Shown here: in pieces, positions 11,400-22,873 of the stretch | How the letters are laid out: each line of letters opens with the position of its first letter | Numbering within the stretch: position 1 is the stretch's first letter | Assembly (NCBI RefSeq): GCF_003611635.1 | Contig: NZ_RAVZ01000062.1 | Location: forward strand, 1-34,404 | Direction: 5' to 3' | DNA length: 34,404 nucleotides | Origin: Corallococcus terminator | Lineage (GTDB): Bacteria > Myxococcota > Myxococcia > Myxococcales > Myxococcaceae | Notes under the pieces: model-generated | Seen by the model: only the letters and a program-made list of their open reading frames with translations | The model's database searches: none | Told to the model about the DNA's origin: nothing | Program-made: the position numbers and the translations under genes

Positions 11400-13025
11400 T
11401 CAAACCTTGTGCGGAGCCTCCGGGATGCCGGGCGGCACCGAGCCCGCCACGCCGGGCGGCGTCACCACCGGGGGCGGAACCAGCGCGCCCACGTGCATGC
11501 GGTGCTGCACCTCCGCGAACCGCCGTGACGCCTCCGCCTCCGGCGACAGCAGCGACACAATCCAGCCCACGAAGAACGACAGCGGAATCGTCACGAGCCC
11601 CGGGTTCTTCAGCGGGAAGGGCGCCGACGCGTGCCCCAAGAGCTCCACCTGCACCGTGGGCGACAGGAAGATGAGCAGCACCGCGCTGAAGGCGCCGGTC
11701 AGCATGCTCGCCACCGCGCCGCGCGTGGTGAAGCCCTTCCACATCATGGACAGCAGCAGCGCCGGGAAGTTCGCGCTCGCCGCGATGGCGAACGCCAGGC
11801 CCACCATGAAGGCCACGTTCTGCCCCTTGAACACGACGCCCAGGATGATGGCCAGCACGCCCAGCAGGAGGCTTGCCAGTCGCGCCACCTTGAGCTGTTC
11901 GCTCTCCGGCGCGTGGCCCTTGCGCACCACGTGCGACCACAGGTCGTGCGACAGCGCCGCCGCGCCCGACAGCGTCAGGCCCGCGACCACCGCGAGAATG
12001 GTGGCGAAGGACACCGCGGCGATGAAGCCCAGGAAGCCCGTGCCGCCCACCACCTCCGCGAGCATGGGCGCCGCCATGTTGCCGCCCTTGTCCACCGCCG
12101 TGATGCCCTGCCGGCCCACCAGCACCGCCGCGCCGAAGCCCAGCACGAACGTCACCAGGTAGAAGAAGCCGATGAGGCCCGTGGCGTAGAACACGCTCGT
12201 GCGCGCCGCCTTCGCGTTGGGCACCGTGTAGAAGCGCATCAGGATGTGCGGCAGGCCCGCCGTGCCGAACATCAGCGCCACGCCCAGGGAGATGGTCTCC
12301 AGCGGGTTGGCCACCAGCTTGCCCGGGGCCAGCACCTCCGGCCCGTACATCTTCGCCGCCTCGTTGAAGAGCGCCGCGGGGTTCATGCCGAACTTCCACA
12401 GCACCGCCACCGCCAGCGCGGACGCGCCGCCCAGCAGCAGCACCGCCTTCACGATCTGCACCCACGTCGTGGCGATCATCCCGCCGAACAGCACGTAGAG
12501 GATCATCACCGCGCCCACGATGACCACGGCCATCTCATACGACAGGCCGAAGAGCAGGTGGATGAGGTTGCCCGCGCCCACCATCTGGGCAATCAGATAG
12601 AAGACGACGACGGTGAGCGTGCCCACCGCGGCGGACAGGCGCACCGGGGTCTGCTTCAGCCGGTAGGCCACCGCGTCCGCGAAGGTGTACTTGCCCAGGT
12701 TTCGCAGGGGCTCCGCGATGAGGAACGTCACCACCGGCCAGCCCACCAGCCAGCCCACCGAATAGATGAGCCCGTCGAACCCCGACGTGGCCACGAGCCC
12801 CGCGATGCCCAGGAAGCTCGCGGCGCTCATGAAGTCGCCCGCGAGCGCGAAGCCGTTCTGCACCGCGCTGATGTTGCCGCCGGCGGCGAAGAACTCGGAG
12901 GTCGTCTTGGTGCGGCGCGCGGCCCAGTAGGTGATGGCCAGCGTGATGCTGACGAAGATGAGGAAGAAGACGATGGCCGTCGTGTTGGGCTGGCCAATCT
13001 GGGAGCCCGCGGTCGAGGGATTCAT
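11400..13025 (-). CDS. actP: Cation/acetate symporter ActP
   Basis: A 541-residue sodium:solute symporter (SSS) with about 13 hydrophobic segments. The N-terminal part shows the ActP pattern: [22 protein letters not shown] (about 43-64) and the following [15 protein letters not shown], which belong to the Na+-binding core region. Acetate-specific ActP family features continue through [13 protein letters not shown]. It takes up acetate and other short carboxylates with a cation. It lies 16 bp downstream of a DUF485 gene, the usual partner (yjcH-actP in E. coli), at the end of the porin-acs-DUF485-actP operon. The 3' end is followed by a strong hairpin. Confidence 0.95.
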
Positions 13026-13041: not shown

Positions 13042-13320
13042 TTAGCGGCGCAGCTCGTCGAGGATGTGGTCGTACTTGCGGTTGGCCCACAGGATGTAGA
13101 GGCCCGTCAGCACCCAGGCGACCAGGATGGTGACCGCGCCCAACACGATGCCGATGGACAGCCCCGGCACGAGCTGCTGCCCCATCAGCGGCCGGTTGAA
13201 CGCCACGAGCAGGATGAAGCCCAGGTACGTCACGAGCATCGCCACCGTGAGCGCTCCCGCCACGCGCCAGCGCGCGGCGGCGAGTGCCTTCAGGACATCG
13301 TCCTTGGAATTGCCATACAT
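13042..13320 (-). CDS. DUF485 small membrane protein (YjcH family)
   Basis: A 92-residue protein with two transmembrane segments (about 20-42 and 52-78), separated by a short loop with an Arg-Pro pair ([10 protein letters not shown]). The start is the ATG at 13320. DUF485 proteins are nearly always encoded just ahead of actP and probably assist the symporter in the inner membrane, although their exact job is unsettled. Here the gene lies 43 bp after acs and 16 bp before actP, matching the acs-yjcH-actP order of enterobacteria. Confidence 0.92.
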
Positions 13321-13363: not shown

Positions 13364-15328
13364 TCAGCGTCGCGAGGCCGGAGGCAGCCCCTTGGTCAAC
13401 AGTTCGTCCAGCACCGCGGGGTCCGCCAGCGTGCTGGCGTCGCCCAGGTTCTCCGTCTCACCGCTGGCGATCTTCCGCAGCATGCGGCGCAGGATCTTCC
13501 CCGAGCGCGTCTTGGGCAGGCCCGACACCAGCACCACCCGGTCCGGCGCGGCGATGGGCCCGATGACGTGGCGCACCTGCTCGCGCAGCGCGCCCATCAT
13601 CTTCTCGTCCGGCGTGCGCACGAAGTCCGGCTTCACCGTCACGAAGGCGCACACGCCGGTGCCCTTCAGGTCGTGCGGGTAGCCCACCACGGCGGCCTCG
13701 GCGACGGCCTCGTGCGCCACGAGCGCGCTCTCCACCTCCGCGGTGCCCAGCCGGTGGCCGGACACGTTGAGCACGTCGTCCACGCGGCCGGTGATCCAGT
13801 AGTAGCCGTCCTCGTCGCGGCGGCAGCCGTCGCCGGTGAAGTACAGGGGCAGGAACCGCGCGTAGTACGTCTCCACGAAGCGCTCGTGGTGGCCGTACAG
13901 CGTCCGGGCCTGACCCGGCCAGGAGCGCGCCAGACACAGGTTGCCGCTGACGCCGTTGCCCTCCAGCACCTTGCCCTCTTCATCCACCAGCACCGGCTCC
14001 ACGCCGAAGAAGGGCAGGGTGGCGCTGCCGGGCTTGCACGGCGTCGCTCCGGGCAGGGGCGCGATGAGGATGCCGCCCGTCTCCGTCTGCCACCAGGTGT
14101 CCACCACGGGGCAGCGGCCCTCGCCCACCACGTCGTGGTACCAGCGCCACACCTCCGGATTGATGGGCTCGCCCACGCTGCCCAGCAGGCGCAGCGACTT
14201 GCGGGAGGACTTCGTGACGAACGCGTCGCCCTCCTTGATGAGGGAGCGCAGCGCGGTGGGCGCGGTGTAGAGCGTGGTGGCCTTCACGTCGTCCACCACC
14301 TGCCAGAGGCGGCCCGCGTCGGGCCACGTGGGCGTGGACTCGAAGAGGACCGTGGTGGTGCCGGTGGAGAGCGGGCCGTACAGGAGGTACGAATGTCCCG
14401 TCACCCAGCCCACGTCCGCGGTGCAGAAGTGCACGTCGTCCGGCTGCGTGTCGAAGACGTAGCGGAACGTGGTGGCGGCGTACACGAGGTAGCCCGCCGT
14501 CGTGTGCATTACGCCCTTGGGCTTCCCGGTGGAGCCCGACGTGTAGAGGATGAAGAGCGGATCCTCGGAGTCCATCCACTCCGCGGGGCACACGCCCCGG
14601 TGCTTCTTCACCTCCACGTCCAGCCAGTGGTCGCGGCCCTCGCGCATCGGCACTTCCTTGGCCGTGCGGCGCACGACGAGGACGGACGTCACCTGCGTGA
14701 GGCCCTCCAGGGCCTCGTCGGTGATGGCCTTGGTCGCCACGTTCTTGGGGCCGCGCGGGCCTTCATTGGCGGTGACGACGAGCTTCGCGCCGCAGTCCAG
14801 CACGCGCTCGCGCAGCGAGTCCGCGGAGAAGCCGGCGAACACCACGGAGTGCACCGCCCCGATGCGGGCGCACGCGAGCATCGTGTACGCGAGCTCCGGC
14901 ACCATGGGCAGGTACACGATGACGCGGTCGCCCTTCTTCACGCCGTGCGCCTTGAGCACGTTGGCCACGCGGCCGACATGGTGTTGCAGGTCGCGGAAGG
15001 TGATGACCTCGTAGTCGCCGGGCGTGTTCTTCGCCCAGATGATGGCGGCCTTGTCCGGGCGCGCCTTCGCGTGGCGGTCCACGCAGTTGACGGTGACGTT
15101 GAGCCTTCCGCCCCCGAACCAGGTGAAGTCGGCGGCCTGCTCGTTCACCTCGCGGAGGGTGTCCGGCGGGTGGAACCAGGTGAGCTGCCGGGCCTGTTCG
15201 CCCCAGAAGGCGTCGGGCGCGTCCAGGCTCTGACGGTAGAGGCGCTGGTAGTCCTCCAGGCTCTTCACGTGGGCGGTGCGGCGGAAGGCTTCCTTGGGCG
15301 CGACGAGCAGGTCCTGAGCGGGTGCCAT
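13364..15328 (-). CDS. acsA: Acetyl-CoA synthetase (AMP-forming)
   Basis: A 654-residue enzyme, full length for the family, that turns acetate, ATP and CoA into acetyl-CoA, AMP and PPi in the cytoplasm. Visible motifs are the adenylate-forming loop YTSGSTGKPKG, the substrate-pocket and ATP motif WWQTETGG, YFTGDG, the hinge region WITGRVDDVLNVSGHRLGT, and the C-terminal PKTRSGKILRR. The last motif contains Lys611, equivalent to the lysine whose acetylation by Pat-type enzymes switches off Acs. No acetyltransferase or deacetylase gene is linked. It follows the porin gene by 12 bp and precedes the DUF485 and actP genes, forming a complete uptake-plus-activation operon for acetate. Confidence 0.96.
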   Translation of the reverse strand: MAPAQDLLVAPKEAFRRTAHVKSLEDYQRLYRQSLDAPDAFWGEQARQLTWFHPPDTLREVNEQAADFTWFGGGRLNVTVNCVDRHAKARPDKAAIIWAKNTPGDYEVITFRDLQHHVGRVANVLKAHGVKKGDRVIVYLPMVPELAYTMLACARIGAVHSVVFAGFSADSLRERVLDCGAKLVVTANEGPRGPKNVATKAITDEALEGLTQVTSVLVVRRTAKEVPMREGRDHWLDVEVKKHRGVCPAEWMDSEDPLFILYTSGSTGKPKGVMHTTAGYLVYAATTFRYVFDTQPDDVHFCTADVGWVTGHSYLLYGPLSTGTTTVLFESTPTWPDAGRLWQVVDDVKATTLYTAPTALRSLIKEGDAFVTKSSRKSLRLLGSVGEPINPEVWRWYHDVVGEGRCPVVDTWWQTETGGILIAPLPGATPCKPGSATLPFFGVEPVLVDEEGKVLEGNGVSGNLCLARSWPGQARTLYGHHERFVETYYARFLPLYFTGDGCRRDEDGYYWITGRVDDVLNVSGHRLGTAEVESALVAHEAVAEAAVVGYPHDLKGTGVCAFVTVKPDFVRTPDEKMMGALREQVRHVIGPIAAPDRVVLVSGLPKTRSGKILRRMLRKIASGETENLGDASTLADPAVLDELLTKGLPPASRR

Positions 15329-15340
15329 GGCGGAGGGTCC

Positions 15341-16444
15341 TCAGTAGAAGAGCTGGAGCTGGGCGGTGCCGGTGATGCCCGTGGAGGCATGGGCGATGTC
15401 CCCCACGCGCGACACGGCCACTTCCGTCTTCAGGTTGAAGGTGTGCTTCTGGAACCAGATGTTGAAGCCGGGGCGCAGCGTGAGCAGGTCCTGCGCCGCC
15501 ACGCGCCCGTTGAAGTACTCGCCGGAGATGATGGGCTGCACGATGCCGATGCGGTAACCCATCTCCACGAAGAAGCCCGTGCCGCTGCGCGGGTTGTCGA
15601 AGCCCTGCTGCCAGGAGAAGACGTTGCTCTGGAAGACGAACTCCTGGTCCGCGCCCACCGGCACGTCCAGGAACACGTCCGCCGCGAGCGCCACGGCGTC
15701 ATGCACGCCGGACGCGGTGGCGATGGCGGAGTACTGGTAGTCGCCGCCCACGCCGAACGACAACATCGGCTGGTCGGTGAAGTAGATGCCCCGGAGGAAC
15801 TGGTCGTACTCGCGGCCCAGCACGTTGTAGCGCGCGTGGCCCACGACGCGCGGCAGGTCGTCCGGGTTGACCACCTGCCCGTTCTCCAGCTTCGCGCCCT
15901 CCACGCCGTTGAGGATGGCCGCGCGGTATGTGAATGGACCCGCGAAGCCGCGCACCTGCACGCCCATGTCGCGCCAGATCTTCCCCACGCCCAGCGGGTA
16001 GCGGATGAGGTCGGAGTGGTAGTCCACCGTCTGGAGCGCGATGGCGCCCTGCAACGCCTGGTGCGACAGCGGCGCGAGGATGAAGCCCGCCTCCACCCAC
16101 ATCTTGTCGGCGACCTCGTAGGCGATGGTCGCGTCCTGGATGAAGAAGGCCGGATTCCAGTCGCCGTTCTTGCCCAGGTTCGGCTGGTCGGTGTCGATGA
16201 AGAACGACAGCCGCTTGGTGATGGAGCCGAAGACGAGCAGCCGCACCCGGCGCAGGAAGAAGTCCGTGCCCACGCCTCCCGTGGGCGCGCCGTCCTTCAC
16301 GAGCTGCATCTGCGGGTGCAGCAGCACGTCGACGTTGAGCACCGCGTCTTCGCCAAGCTGGATCTTCCCGGCCGCCGCGGGGAGCGCGGTCAGCAGGGCC
16401 GTCAGCACCATCCAGCGCGGCAGCAGGCTTGAGGCAGGGCGCAT
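15341..16444 (-). CDS. Outer-membrane porin of the OprO/P (phosphate-selective) family
   Basis: A 367-residue protein. A signal peptide with basic residues R2 and R10, a hydrophobic core and a likely cut after AAA near residue 25 leads to a chain of alternating strands. It includes FLRRVRLLVFGSI and FFIDTDQPNLGK, typical of the OprO/OprP 'phosphate-selective porin' family, and ends in a C-terminal aromatic (LFY) that marks beta-barrel proteins. Family members often transport substrates other than phosphate. First place in an operon with acs and actP suggests passage of acetate or similar acids. A sigma-54-like promoter would start RNA only about five bases before this ATG; Met12 is an alternative start but would give a signal without basic residues. 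Confidence 0.88.
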   Translation of the reverse strand: MRPASSLLPRWMVLTALLTALPAAAGKIQLGEDAVLNVDVLLHPQMQLVKDGAPTGGVGTDFFLRRVRLLVFGSITKRLSFFIDTDQPNLGKNGDWNPAFFIQDATIAYEVADKMWVEAGFILAPLSHQALQGAIALQTVDYHSDLIRYPLGVGKIWRDMGVQVRGFAGPFTYRAAILNGVEGAKLENGQVVNPDDLPRVVGHARYNVLGREYDQFLRGIYFTDQPMLSFGVGGDYQYSAIATASGVHDAVALAADVFLDVPVGADQEFVFQSNVFSWQQGFDNPRSGTGFFVEMGYRIGIVQPIISGEYFNGRVAAQDLLTLRPGFNIWFQKHTFNLKTEVAVSRVGDIAHASTGITGTAQLQLFY

Positions 16445-16459
16445 AGGCCCTGTCGCATG

Positions 16460-16475
16460 AGCAATGCCTGTTCCA
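16460..16475 (-). promoter_or_regulatory. Sigma-54-like -24/-12 element of the acetate operon
   Basis: The minus strand reads TGGAAC, five bases, then TTGCT. The GG and GC doublets have the correct spacing, with one mismatch to TGGCAC in the -24 element. Transcription would begin near 16449, just before the porin ATG at 16444, which is unusually close. The linked activator is a sigma-54 type, and phased GTAAC elements lie 100-171 bases upstream of this start. Confidence 0.45.
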
Positions 16476-16548
16476 CCCCCGCGTTCGTCGGGTTTCAGGA
16501 CCTTGGGGGTTGGCTCGCCGCGTCAGGATGTGGCGGAAGGTGACAGGG

Positions 16549-16620
16549 CGTTACCCCCCGTAACGATTCTCGCACTGCGTCGTAACGCCGGGGTAACACC
16601 GGAGTAACACCGGGTGACGC
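16549..16620. promoter_or_regulatory. Phased GTTAC/GTAAC operator array upstream of the acetate operon
   Basis: CGTTAC (16549-16554) and GTAACG (16560-16565) form an inverted repeat with a 5-base spacer. From 16582 there are three head-to-tail 11-bp units: GTAACGCCGGG, GTAACACCGGA and GTAACACCGGG (16582-16614), then a decayed copy GTGACGC from 16614. GTAAC thus recurs at 16560, 16582, 16593 and 16604, always in multiples of 11 bp on one DNA face. The array sits at enhancer distance from the sigma-54-like element at 16460-16475. The half-site resembles the TGTTAC/GTAACA half-sites remembered for Pseudomonas CbrB. The rest of 16445-16747 shows no gene. Confidence 0.6.
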
Positions 16621-16747: not shown

Positions 16748-17848
16748 TCAGTCCGCAGCATCCTCTTCGGATGAGATGCCCGCATCCGCGTCCTCGTCCG
16801 GCAGCCTCTGCGAGGTGTCGAGGCCCGCGGCTTCCAGGAGGATCTTCCGACCCGTGGCGGGCAGGCTGAGGCCCGTCGTCGGGTGCCCGTTGGTGAGGAG
16901 CACCACCGCCGCAGCGTGTCCGGGCAGGAAGCCCACCCACGCCACGAAGCCGCCGTTGCCACCGGCCTTGCTCACCACCTTCGCTCCGCCGGGCGCATCT
17001 TGGATGTACCAGCCCAGGCCAATGGACTGATGCGCGGAGATCGCGAAGTGGGGCGTGTGCGCGAGCTTCATCGCTCGGTAGGTGAGCAGCGGCATGGAGG
17101 GGATGCGGAAGAGGTTGCCCTCCAGGAAGCGCAGCATGTCCGACGCGGTGGAGTTGAAGCCCACGCCCCGGTAGCCGATGCGCTTTGCCTTCGCCGTGTA
17201 GCCCTGCGCGATGCGTTCGGGCCGGATGCCGGTGAGGTCCACGCGCGTGTCGCGCATCGTGAGCGGTTCCTGGAGGTCCGTGGCGAACAGCTCCGGGTAG
17301 CTGCGCCGCGCGGCGAAGGTGGTGGTGAAGCCCTGCGTCACCTCGCTCACGTTGGAGTAGCTGTAGTGCGCCCCCACGCGCGTCTCCGGGTTGAAGCGCG
17401 TCCAGAAGTCGAACATCGCCTGCGGTGGCACCTCACCCCGGTACAGCGCGCCCGCGGGGTGGCCGGGCACGTTGGCGGACGGCATGCCCGCCGTCATGGT
17501 GCCCAGCGATTGGGGCGTCACCTGCCGGATGACAGTCCCCTGCTGGCGGACCTCTCCCGGCAGGAAGCGGGTGATCTGATCCGTCAGCGCCATCTTCCCC
17601 TCCACGATGCGCGCAGCGGCGAGCGTGTTGGTGAAGACCTTCTGCACGGATCCGATGAGGAACAGCGTGTCCTCGGCCACCGGTTGGCGGGTTTCACGGT
17701 CCGACAGGCCCGCGACGTAATGGGCGCGCACGTCTCCGCCGGCCACCGCCGCCGAAACGCCAATCTCCGTCTGCGTGCCCAGGTAGTCCTTCATGGCCGC
17801 CGCGACGAGCTGCTTCAGCCGCGCGGGGTCCTGCGCTTGGGTCGGCAT
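16748..17848 (-). CDS. Serine hydrolase, class C beta-lactamase/DD-peptidase family
   Basis: A 366-residue protein. The ATG at 17848 is preferred over 17914 because it has a GGAG ribosome site 8 bases upstream and avoids running into the neighbouring gene. The motifs are those of penicillin-binding-like serine hydrolases: S67-V-Q-K70 (SxxK), Y164-S-N166 (YxN) and K294-A-G296 in place of KTG. Such enzymes hydrolyse beta-lactams, D-amino peptides or esters. No signal peptide is visible at either start, so the protein may be cytoplasmic, which is unusual for the family. The stop codon overlaps a small hairpin (GAGCCC/GGGCTC, 16734-16749). The upstream gene ends 34 bp away, so the two may share a transcript. 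Confidence 0.85.
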   Translation of the reverse strand: MPTQAQDPARLKQLVAAAMKDYLGTQTEIGVSAAVAGGDVRAHYVAGLSDRETRQPVAEDTLFLIGSVQKVFTNTLAAARIVEGKMALTDQITRFLPGEVRQQGTVIRQVTPQSLGTMTAGMPSANVPGHPAGALYRGEVPPQAMFDFWTRFNPETRVGAHYSYSNVSEVTQGFTTTFAARRSYPELFATDLQEPLTMRDTRVDLTGIRPERIAQGYTAKAKRIGYRGVGFNSTASDMLRFLEGNLFRIPSMPLLTYRAMKLAHTPHFAISAHQSIGLGWYIQDAPGGAKVVSKAGGNGGFVAWVGFLPGHAAAVVLLTNGHPTTGLSLPATGRKILLEAAGLDTSQRLPDEDADAGISSEEDAAD

Positions 17849-17882
17849 GCAATGGCTCCGGAAGAAGGGGGGGCGTGGATGC

Positions 17883-18362
17883 CTACGACTCGTAGAGGGA
17901 GATGTCGCAGCCATTGCTGGTCATCTGGATCTTCATGTCCTCGGAGGCACCGTTGAGGAAGAAGTAGACGGTGGTGCCGTCGTCGGAGGCGTCCAGGGTG
18001 CAGTAGAAGTTCTGCTTGCACGTCCAGATCTTCCCGTTGTCATCCTGGAACTGGACCCACCAGTAGTCGTGGCCGATGGCGCCGGTCCAGTAGGTGGCTG
18101 GGAATGAAGAACTGGTGGCGTTCTGCGCGAGCGACGGCCAGTTGCCCTGCTGCTGATAGCTGGGGTCGTTGTTGTAGCGGTGGCGCAGCGTCACGCCGCT
18201 GATGGCCGACCCCCACTGGTTGACGACGACGCAGTTGGCGGTGCGCTCCGTGGACAGCGGGGCGCCGCCCTTCACGGCGGTGCGGGCCGTGTCGGGACGC
18301 AGGCGGGTGTCGAAGCCGGACCGGGGCTGACCACTCGAATCGAGGCGGGCGGAATTGCACAT
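17883..18362 (-). CDS. Small beta-rich protein, possibly an 'Up-regulated in Daf-2' (UDP) domain
   Basis: A 159-residue protein. The ATG at 18362 follows an AGGAG site six bases upstream; another ATG at 18380 lacks one. Residues about 43-159 are rich in Asn, Thr, Trp and Tyr and look like a single beta-sandwich: NQWGSAISGVTLRHRY near 48-63, TGAIGHDYWWVQF at 93-105, and KIWTCKQNFYCTL at 111-123. The sequence recalls the UDP domain of nematode and bacterial proteins, but this is a recollection of pattern and needs a profile search. Four Cys lie at 44, 115, 121 and 152. No signal peptide is seen. A sigma-54 promoter with two palindromic enhancer-type sites lies upstream, implying tightly controlled, inducible expression. 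Confidence 0.7.
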   Translation of the reverse strand: MCNSARLDSSGQPRSGFDTRLRPDTARTAVKGGAPLSTERTANCVVVNQWGSAISGVTLRHRYNNDPSYQQQGNWPSLAQNATSSSFPATYWTGAIGHDYWWVQFQDDNGKIWTCKQNFYCTLDASDDGTTVYFFLNGASEDMKIQMTSNGCDISLYES

Positions 18363-18418
18363 GGGTTGCTCCTGGAACACCGGGGGTTGGATTCATCCGG
18401 TGGATGCCAGGAGCCATG

Positions 18419-18533: not shown

Positions 18534-19915
<1,382 letters not shown>

Positions 19916-19919
<4 letters not shown>

Positions 19920-22873
19920 GCGGAAGCCTCCGGGGGGTTCAGGGGCGCGCGGGGCAGGCTCACGGTGACGCGAGTTCCGCCCTCGACACGGCCTTCGATG
20001 CGCAGCGTGCCACCGTGCTCGCGCACGATGCCCTCCGCCAGCATCAGGCCCAGGCCGGTGCCTTCGCCGGGCTGCTTGGTGGTGAAGAAGGGTTCGAAGA
20101 TGCGTTGCGACAACTCCGGGGCGATGCCGTGGCCCCGGTCCTCCACCTGGATGCGCACCACGTCTCCAGCGGCTTCCGCCAGCAGGTCCACCCGCGCCCC
20201 CGTGGGCGACGCGTCGATGGCGTTGGTCAGGAGGTTCACCAGCACCTGCTCCAGCCGCTGCGCGTCGCCTCTCACGTCCAGCCCGTCCGGGCTCTGGTGC
20301 GTGCACGCCACGTCGCGGCCCTTGCGAGACAACTGCGCCAGTTGCGCGGCCTCCGCGAGCAGCTGGCCCACCGGCACGCGCGTGAAGGGCCGGGACTCGC
20401 CGCCCACCGTGCCCGCGTGGCCGAAGCCCACGAGCGTCCGGACGATGGCGTCGATGCGGCGGCACTGCTGGAGGATGAGCCCCACGCGCTCGCGCACCGC
20501 CTCCGGGTCCTCCAGGTCGTACTTGAGGTTCTGCGTGAGGCTGGCGATGGCGGTGAGCGGGTTGCCAATCTCATGCGCCACGCCCGCGGCCACCCGGCCC
20601 AGCGACGCGAGCCGGTCCTGGTGCGCGAGCCGCGCGTCCACCGCCTTGCGCTCCGTCCAGTCCTCCACCAGGAGCGTCATGCCCTGTGCATCCCCCGCGC
20701 GGTCTCCGTCGGATGGCGTCAGCCGCGAGCAGTGCACGCGCAGGATGCGCGTCTGGCCCCCCACCGGGACGCGCGCCTCCGTGTCGCTGGCCAGGGAAGA
20801 GGCCACGTCTGAAAGCAGGGTGCCCCAGGGCTCCGGCAGATGCGCCAGCGGGTGGCCGCGCGCCGCGTCCATGGACACGCGCGACACCGCCTCCAGCGCC
20901 GCGTTCCAGATGACGACCTCTCCGTCCGGGCCCACCGTGCACACGCCCAGCGGCAGGTCCTCCAGGATGCGGTAGAGGTAGCGGCGCACGACCTCCAGTT
21001 CGCGCACCGGCCCGCGCATGTCCCGTGCGTCGCGCACCCGCTCCTCCACGAAGCGCAGTTGATCCGCCAGGGCGGTGCGCGCGCCGGGGTCCAACCGCAG
21101 CGCTTCGCCCACCGCGAGCCGGGCCAGCACCGGGCCGATGAGGCCGGACAGGTTGCGCTCCACGCCGTCGCGCAGGCGGCGCAACTCCGCGGGCCGACGC
21201 TCGTCCGGGGGCAACTCCAGGGCCTCGCGCGCGCGGTCCACCTCCGCCGCCGCCACCTGCGCGCCCAGCACCGGCTCCAACTGCCGGCGGAACTCGTCGG
21301 GGGAGCTGGCCGCCACGCTGCCCTCGGCGAGCCCCGGCGCCTCGCGCGCGCACACCCGGGCGGCCTCCTTCTCCTCCACCGACTGGCGCGTCATCAGCGA
21401 TACGGCAACGAAGCACAGCGCGTTGAGCCCCAGCGACGTGAACGTGGCGAAGCCCCACGGTTCGTCCGCGGAGAAGCCGAGCGCGACGGAGGCCTGGTTC
21501 GTCCACGCCACCACCGACGGCGGCTCCCACAGGGGCGCGACCAGCGTGGCCGTCCACGTCGCGGCCCCCGCGCCCAGCCCCGCGAGCAGGCCCGCGCGCG
21601 TCGCCTGGGTCCACAGCAGCAGGCCCAGCACGCCCGGCGCGAACTGCGCCGTCGCCACGAAGGACACGAGCCCCAGGTCCACGAGCCCCGTCGCCCGCGT
21701 GTCGATGAGCCGGTAGAAGCCGTAGCCCGCGAGGATGATGGCGGCGATGAGCACGCGCCGGGCCCAGAGCAGCCACCCGTAGAGGTCGTCCCGGCCGCGC
21801 GCGGTGCCCAGGGGCAGCACCAGGTGCGTCAGGCACATGGGCGCGAGCGCGAGCGTGGTGACGATGACCATCGCGCTCGCCGCGGACACGCCGCCCAGGA
21901 ACGCGAGCAGCGCCACGGCTGTTGCCCCCTTCGCGGCGGGCACGGAGAGCACGTGGAAGTCCGCGGGCCAGGGCAGGCCCAGCGCTTCTCCGGACCACAG
22001 CAGCACGGGCACTGCCGCGTTGATGAGCAGCATCAACAGCGGGAAGGCCCACGCGACGGTGGCCAGGCCGTCGCGCTCCGGTGCCTCGGTGAAGGCCACG
22101 TGGTACTGGCGGGGCGTGAGGAAGGCGGCGACGACGGAGAGCACCAGCAGCGGGGCCCAGGACGCGTCGCGCGCGGGGCGTTGCAGCGCCTCCACCGCTT
22201 CGGGGTGCACGGTGAGCCAGTCCTGCAATCCACCCACGCCGCCGAAGACAGACACCACGCACCAGCCCGCGACGATGATGAGCGCCAGCAGCTTCACGCC
22301 GGACTCGAAGGCGATGGCCAGCATCAGGCCCTCGTGACGCTCCCGCGGGGCGGGGTGGCGGGCGCCGAAGAGCAGCGAGAAGACCACCAGCACGCCGCAG
22401 AAGCCGGGGCCCACCAACGCGGGGGACGCGGCGGGGCTCAGAAGGCGGGCGGACTCCACGACGGCGCGAATCTGGAGGGCCAGGTAGGGCAGGCTGCCCG
22501 CAAGGATGAACAGCGTCACCGCGGTGCCCGTCACCTGACCGGGGTAGCGGAACGCGAGCAGGTCCGCGAGCGACGTGAGTTGCAGCTCGCGCGTCAGCCG
22601 CAAGAGGGGCCGCCACAGCACCGGGGCCAGCAGGCATGCGAGCGTGAGGCCCAGGTAGATGCCCAGGTAGCGGAAGCCGTGGCGGGCCGCGTAGCCCACG
22701 CTGCCGAAGTAGGACCAGGACGTGGCGTACACGCCCAGGGCCAGCGCGTAGACGAGCGGGTGCTGGGTGATGCGGGCCGGGATGCGGCCCCTTTCGGCGG
22801 CGTAGGCCACCAGGAACAGCACGCCCAGGTAGGCGACGGAGGCGACGACGAGCGGGCCCAGGCCCAGCGTCAT
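19916..22873 (-). CDS. SSS-STAC-PAS histidine kinase (CbrA/CrbS-like)
   Basis: A 985-residue protein from the ATG at 22873, which overlaps the stop of the small upstream gene. Residues about 1-500 form a sodium:solute symporter-like domain of about 13 transmembrane helices. Then come a STAC-like linker (about 525-600, [13 protein letters not shown]), a PAS domain (about 630-745), the dimerisation helix with His767 in AHEIGNPL, and an ATPase domain with [18 protein letters not shown] and GTGLGL. Such kinases couple solute transport or sensing to gene control: CbrA senses carbon and histidine status, and CrbS controls acetate use. Linkage to acs, actP and a porin favours acetate or a related acid as the signal; this is inferred. 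It pairs with the response regulator whose start overlaps its stop. Confidence 0.93.

Follow-up and report, generated by a model that had tools for sequence, protein, structure and literature searches.

A GTTAC/GTAAC array upstream of a myxobacterial acetate operon is a probable binding site of a linked CbrB orthologue

Introduction

The CbrAB two-component system of Pseudomonas and Azotobacter, whose targets are crcZ and crcY, has been described as unique to the Pseudomonadaceae (PMC8871633). The regulator CbrB recognizes the subsites TGTTAC (forward) and GTAACA (reverse), the centres of which lie 20-25 bp apart (PMC6296734), and nine residues have been named for the histidine pocket of the kinase CbrA (PMC13022988). 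In the CrbS/CrbR (MxtR/ErdR) system an SLC5-STAC kinase controls acs and actP (PMC5715377, PMC5436829), and RpuS/RpuR controls the pyruvate symporter MctP in Sinorhizobium (PMC9100948). Our search of mostly open literature found no paper linking CbrAB with myxobacteria. Here we describe a 34,404-bp stretch of the Corallococcus terminator genome (hereafter the window), in which a dense array of GTTAC/GTAAC half-sites stands upstream of an acetate operon and near a kinase-regulator pair (Table 1).

Results

A pentamer search of the window located GTAAC on the plus strand at 16560, 16582, 16593 and 16604 and GTTAC at 16550, the successive start-to-start distances from 16550 being 10, 22, 11 and 11 bp. 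Read in gene orientation, that is, on the minus strand towards the porin gene, the array is F-11-F-11-F-22-F-10-R (F, GTTAC; R, GTAAC; start to start). The first-pass annotation of this DNA had placed the elements at multiples of 11 bp, which holds for the four same-strand copies but not for the inverted partner, 10 bp away. The window contains ten such pentamers, and half of them are packed into 59 bp, while dinucleotide shuffling of the window, repeated 1000 times, gave at most three per 60 bp, and among 20000 shuffled versions of the intergenic region (303 bp) none had five. In the genome of 10.35 Mb the exact palindrome GTTAC-N5-GTAAC is found a single time, at the array, and thus the regulon looks local here. 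A genome search with spacers of 4-6 bp returned the array site and only one other, an N6 palindrome on another contig (G000:C20:10556-10571, L032).

Table 1 Features of the window around the array.
Feature	Coordinates	Strand	Basis or remark
actP-like cation/acetate symporter	11400..13025	-	SSF and PRK09395
Small membrane protein, presumably of the DUF485 kind	13042..13320	-	ORF located; named by look and by position before actP
acs, acetate-CoA ligase	13364..15328	-	TIGR02188, 942 bits
Outer-membrane porin-like protein, first operon gene	15341..16444	-	Weak Porin_O_P, ExtI-like
Sigma-54 (-24/-12) promoter TGGAACAGGCATTGCT	16460..16475	-	Only window match to TGGNA-N6-TTGCW; spacing to array shared with L199, L204, L149
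Degenerate half-site GTCAC (gene orientation), 10 bp downstream of R1	16540..16544	-	Invariant in 14 congeners; putative role
Core half-site R1, GTTAC on plus strand (GTAAC in gene orientation), right arm of GTTAC-N5-GTAAC	16550..16554	+	Conserved
Core half-site F2, GTTAC, left arm of inverted pair	16560..16564	-	Pentamer search; conserved
Core half-site F1, GTTAC, 22 bp upstream of F2	16582..16586	-	Kept in 14/14 regulator-bearing congeners with intact promoter
Half-site GTTAC, 11-bp-phased extra copy	16593..16597	-	In some congeners only
Half-site GTTAC, distal, 11-bp-phased extra copy	16604..16608	-	Pentamer search; lacking in most congeners
Class C beta-lactamase-like gene between regulator and array	16748..17914	-	Absent from between them in many congeners
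PUD1_2-like small protein between regulator and array	17883..18380	-	Domain match
CbrB orthologue: receiver, AAA+ sigma-54 activator with GAFTGA, Fis-type HTH	18534..19919	-	Domains and reciprocal best hits
CbrA orthologue: SLC5-like membrane domain, STAC region, PAS, HisKA, HATPase	19916..22873	-	Alignment to CbrA; start probably 22873

The array stands 89 bp upstream of the sigma-54 element TGGAACAGGCATTGCT, in agreement with an earlier suggestion of a sigma-54-like element at enhancer distance. The operon behind this promoter comprises porin, acs, a small membrane protein and actP; the third product we take to be of the DUF485 kind, a family name from established knowledge and not from Pfam. 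Between array and promoter (window 16476-16549) lies a block, GTCACCTTCCGCCACATCCTGACGCG..CGAGCCAACC in gene orientation, and because its GTCACCTTCCGCCACATCCTGACGCG part is as invariant as the half-sites among 14 congeners, a second factor may bind there. Where the Corallococcus congeners have GCCAC in this block, the genomes of genus g24 have GTAAC. Every congener also encodes a second acetate-CoA ligase, ~53% identical (G000:C122:19641-21524; upstream region L225), and the four upstream regions of it that were read contain no array.

The stop codon of the kinase gene overlaps the start codon of the regulator gene, the two genes sharing 4 bp. Pseudomonas CbrB was fetched from named genomes, and all comparisons use the retrieved genomic sequences. 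Its best match in the C. terminator genome was the regulator of the window (548 bits; runner-up, 334), and this regulator in turn found CbrB as its best match in four Pseudomonas genomes (535-546 bits; runner-up, 369 or less). The C-terminal DNA-binding tails of the two proteins are near-identical (16-residue stretch). The kinase aligns with CbrA over its full length (~42%), and its SLC5 part scored 406-425 bits against CbrA and 230-240 bits against the second SSS kinase of Pseudomonas, CbrA being the best match in four genomes. This second kinase has ~1190 residues, the size of CrbS/MxtR, and from its size is probably CrbS. Pfam found the PAS, HisKA and HATPase domains of the window kinase, and its SSF model gave no match to the N-terminal part. 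Judged from these comparisons, the linked pair is orthologous to Pseudomonas CbrA/CbrB; what had been called a CbrAB-like system near the array is thus borne out by reciprocal best hits with wide margins and by the near-identical tail.

The nine residues of the histidine pocket map unambiguously onto the retrieved Pseudomonas sequences. Myxobacterial kinases retain Y51, W55, K196 and F406, and nearly always Y75, while they carry S (A once) for F248 and S or T for A56. In the window kinase the changes from CbrA are F248S, A56S, S53T and F71Y. The retained K196 implies that these kinases would be proton-coupled as CbrA is, and the substitution of F248 hints that histidine is not their ligand.

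All 14 genomes of the genus that have both the regulator and an intact promoter, the window included, carry the core F-22-F-10-R together with the sigma-54 element. The extra 11-bp copies number two in the window species, one in four others and none in the remaining congeners, and for this reason they seem to have arisen by local expansion not long ago. Immediately upstream of the array, six congeners have the sequence coding for the C terminus of the regulator. One congener (G014) has lost the kinase, the regulator and this acs and has retained porin, actP and the palindrome (L155), F1 being missing at its porin promoter; another genome (G032) has the porin orthologue with neither a regulator orthologue nor the array.

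Across the phylum, 56 of 195 genomes, representing 12 of 90 genera, encode a regulator orthologue (threshold, E <= 1e-130). In about 11 myxobacterial genera related CbrAB-type pairs adjoin acs, actP, porin or ligase genes, nearly always with half-sites, and about 11 of the regulator-bearing genera have half-sites at acs, acs-like ligase, porin or actP promoters, mostly as an inverted pair. What the relatives share is a core in which the arms of an inverted pair start 9-10 bp apart and a half-site on the same strand stands 22 bp upstream; the layout in g24 is F-22-F-9-R-21-R. Three genomes (G036, G021, G042) carry the same array and sigma-54 element at a distant porin gene. Not even two half-sites within 30 bp were found in any of 29 acs upstream regions of regulator-less genomes, nor at any of six second acs genes in regulator-bearing genomes. 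Inside each of three genera (g5, g16, g32) the array at acs tracks the presence of the regulator, and in G031 the actP promoter next to the regulator has the array and the distant acs gene lacks it. The distance from array to promoter is 89 bp in four genera (that of the window and those of L199, L204 and L149), 78 bp at a pair of loci from a single genus, and 112 bp and 171 bp in one case each; the distances differ mostly by helical-turn steps.

Several of the cross-genus promoters were found via the palindrome itself and are unusable as a test of it. As a check on this bias, twelve myxobacterial regions were picked by gene position: the inverted pair (9/10 bp) occurred in nine (shuffles, 0) and TGG-N8-TTGC in 11 (shuffle mean, 0.15). 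No clear array was seen in the stretch read of three orthologue-bearing genomes (G143, G119, G097). Two others (G022, G043; L146, L147) have the regulator orthologue, with no kinase homologue found within ~8 kb, and in a congener of theirs (L207) the kinase lies ~2 kb from the regulator.

Lack of GTAAC conservation in relatives had been named by the first-pass annotation as an outcome that would speak against its reading; it was looked for and did not occur, the core being kept in 14/14 and also across genera. The emphasis of that annotation on 11-bp phasing fared less well: the phasing is present in the window but is not a conserved feature of the relatives. From the layouts in congeners and across groups we therefore reject it as the conserved principle and prefer the inverted pair with a half-site two turns upstream.

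Arrays were also seen in other settings. One genome (G047) has dense GTTAC/GTAAC arrays on one contig (L187, 3052-3105; L188, 3076-3115, 12391-12429 and 13601-13643); it encodes no close CbrB orthologue, acs, porin and actP homologues are absent beside these arrays, and another regulator might share the half-site. In other genera, an array with a sigma-54 promoter precedes a sugar/MFS-type transporter gene (L184, 8184-8209), and at L180 (3044-3067) and L183 (3011-3034) the same combination precedes genes without a Pfam match; these three sites are candidate extra regulon members.

The association of regulator and array also appears, from sequence comparison, in Gammaproteobacteria outside Pseudomonas. 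In a class-wide draw of 369 genomes around a Pseudomonas genome, 37 (this Pseudomonas included) encode a regulator orthologue, up to 70% identical. Twenty-eight gammaproteobacterial orthologues were picked without reference to the motif, and the 400 bp downstream of the regulator contained the inverted pair in nine (shuffle mean, 0.009) and lacked the short inverted pair in the other 19; the strict TGG-N8-TTGC was found in only two. Several of these 28 regions have acs or an SSS transporter next to the regulator. At 79 Pseudomonas loci, the half-sites downstream of cbrB (the crcZ promoter) stand mostly as F-19/20-R-22-R, and the commonest layout contains F-19-R-22-R. The half-sites TGTTAC/GTAACA, which the first-pass annotation had ascribed to CbrB, agree with these loci and with the published subsites (PMC6296734).

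Discussion

We consider it highly probable that the array consists of upstream activating sites of the CbrB type, through which sigma-54 transcription of the acetate operon is driven, and very probably it is the docking site of the nearby CbrB counterpart. From the sites, the promoter, the operon, the orthology and the co-conservation observed here, we infer the following course. The CbrA orthologue, an SLC5-STAC-PAS histidine kinase, would convey a physiological signal by phosphotransfer to the CbrB orthologue, the Fis-type HTH of which would bind the GTTAC/GTAAC half-sites, namely both arms of the inverted pair, the copy that lies two helical turns upstream and the two extra one-turn copies. 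The regulator would oligomerise at the array, and its GAFTGA-bearing AAA+ domain would open sigma-54 RNA polymerase at 16460-16475, switching on the porin-acs-DUF485-actP operon and with it the uptake and activation of acetate.

An alternative is that GTTAC-N5-GTAAC is read by an unlinked regulator and that the adjacent CbrAB pair has a different target. Dozens of sigma-54 activators are encoded in the genome, the palindrome persists in G014 without the linked pair, and G047, which lacks a close orthologue, has GTTAC arrays. However, the half-site and the HTH both fit CbrB, the array at acs tracks the regulator even inside single genera, and it often stands directly after the regulator gene, so that we regard an unlinked regulator as unlikely. 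Less probable again, and in our view quite improbable, is that the CbrB orthologue mainly represses or poises the operon while an extra activator at the conserved downstream block sets acetate induction. Sigma-54 promoters require an AAA+ activator, and the array stands at a classical enhancer distance with a helical-phase-conserved spacing to such a promoter, which argues against this idea; in its favour are the invariant block GTCACCTTCCGCCACATCCTGACGCG between array and promoter and the finding that, among CbrB targets examined in P. putida, three were repressed (PMC6296734). Readings of the repeats as a random grouping, as a terminator serving the upstream gene or as dispersed repeats can be practically dismissed even though the same-strand copies GGGGTAACACCGGAGTAACACC resemble a short tandem repeat, since the shuffles exclude chance, a search for a terminator-like site found none, the palindrome is single-copy and the array is conserved across genera.

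With the array read as activating sites of the linked CbrB orthologue, the myxobacterial orthologues beside acetate-uptake operons offer a simple one-operon version of CbrAB, in which the signal, the pocket, the geometry of binding and the output are all open to testing in one place. They would represent a second, independent wiring of a transporter-kinase to acetate use besides CrbSR, and the predicted regulator-site pair would extend the known recognition code over two phyla. We put forward, as a conjecture with about even chances, that CbrAB is a family spanning Myxococcota and Gammaproteobacteria that exerts local control of the uptake of acetate or other monocarboxylates via one GTTAC half-site code, and that Pseudomonas made a global carbon regulator of it, with the inverted half-sites moved one helical turn apart and the kinase pocket changed to histidine.

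Among the known systems, RpuS/RpuR resembles the present one, by description, in that an SLC5/STAC kinase governs a monocarboxylate symporter, but it belongs to another lineage and has another target. CrbSR shares acs and actP as linked targets, here by position and promoter only. However, CrbR is of the LuxR type and CrbS is a hybrid kinase, whereas the regulator described here is a sigma-54 AAA+ protein with a Fis HTH and its non-hybrid kinase is closer to CbrA. Membership in CrbSR is rejected on the regulator type and on the kinase, and the contrast with CrbSR drawn in the first-pass annotation stands, the SLC5 part being far closer to CbrA than to the second SSS kinase and the regulator being a sigma-54 activator and not LuxR-type.

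The likeness to CbrAB includes a regulator that is a reciprocal best hit with a near-identical HTH, a best-hit kinase with the CbrA domain order SLC5-STAC-PAS-DHp-CA, and TGTTAC/GTAACA subsites upstream of a sigma-54 promoter. Both systems have GTTAC/GTAAC half-sites with a same-strand 22-bp step at a sigma-54 target promoter, and the regulator gene is immediately followed by the array in Pseudomonas as well as in six myxobacterial congeners, though not in the window. On the other hand, the published layout is F1-R1-R2 with 20-25 bp between centres and here it is F-22-F-10-R, the inverted pair at 9-10 bp being one helical turn closer than the 19-20 bp at Pseudomonas crcZ. The pocket of the kinase differs at the four positions given above. 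The adjoining target here is the porin-acs-actP operon and in Pseudomonas the CrcZ RNA; a CrcZ family search gave no match in the C. terminator genome, and the control genomes likewise gave none. As far as orthology can be judged from the sequences, the present data contradict the uniqueness of CbrAB to the Pseudomonadaceae.
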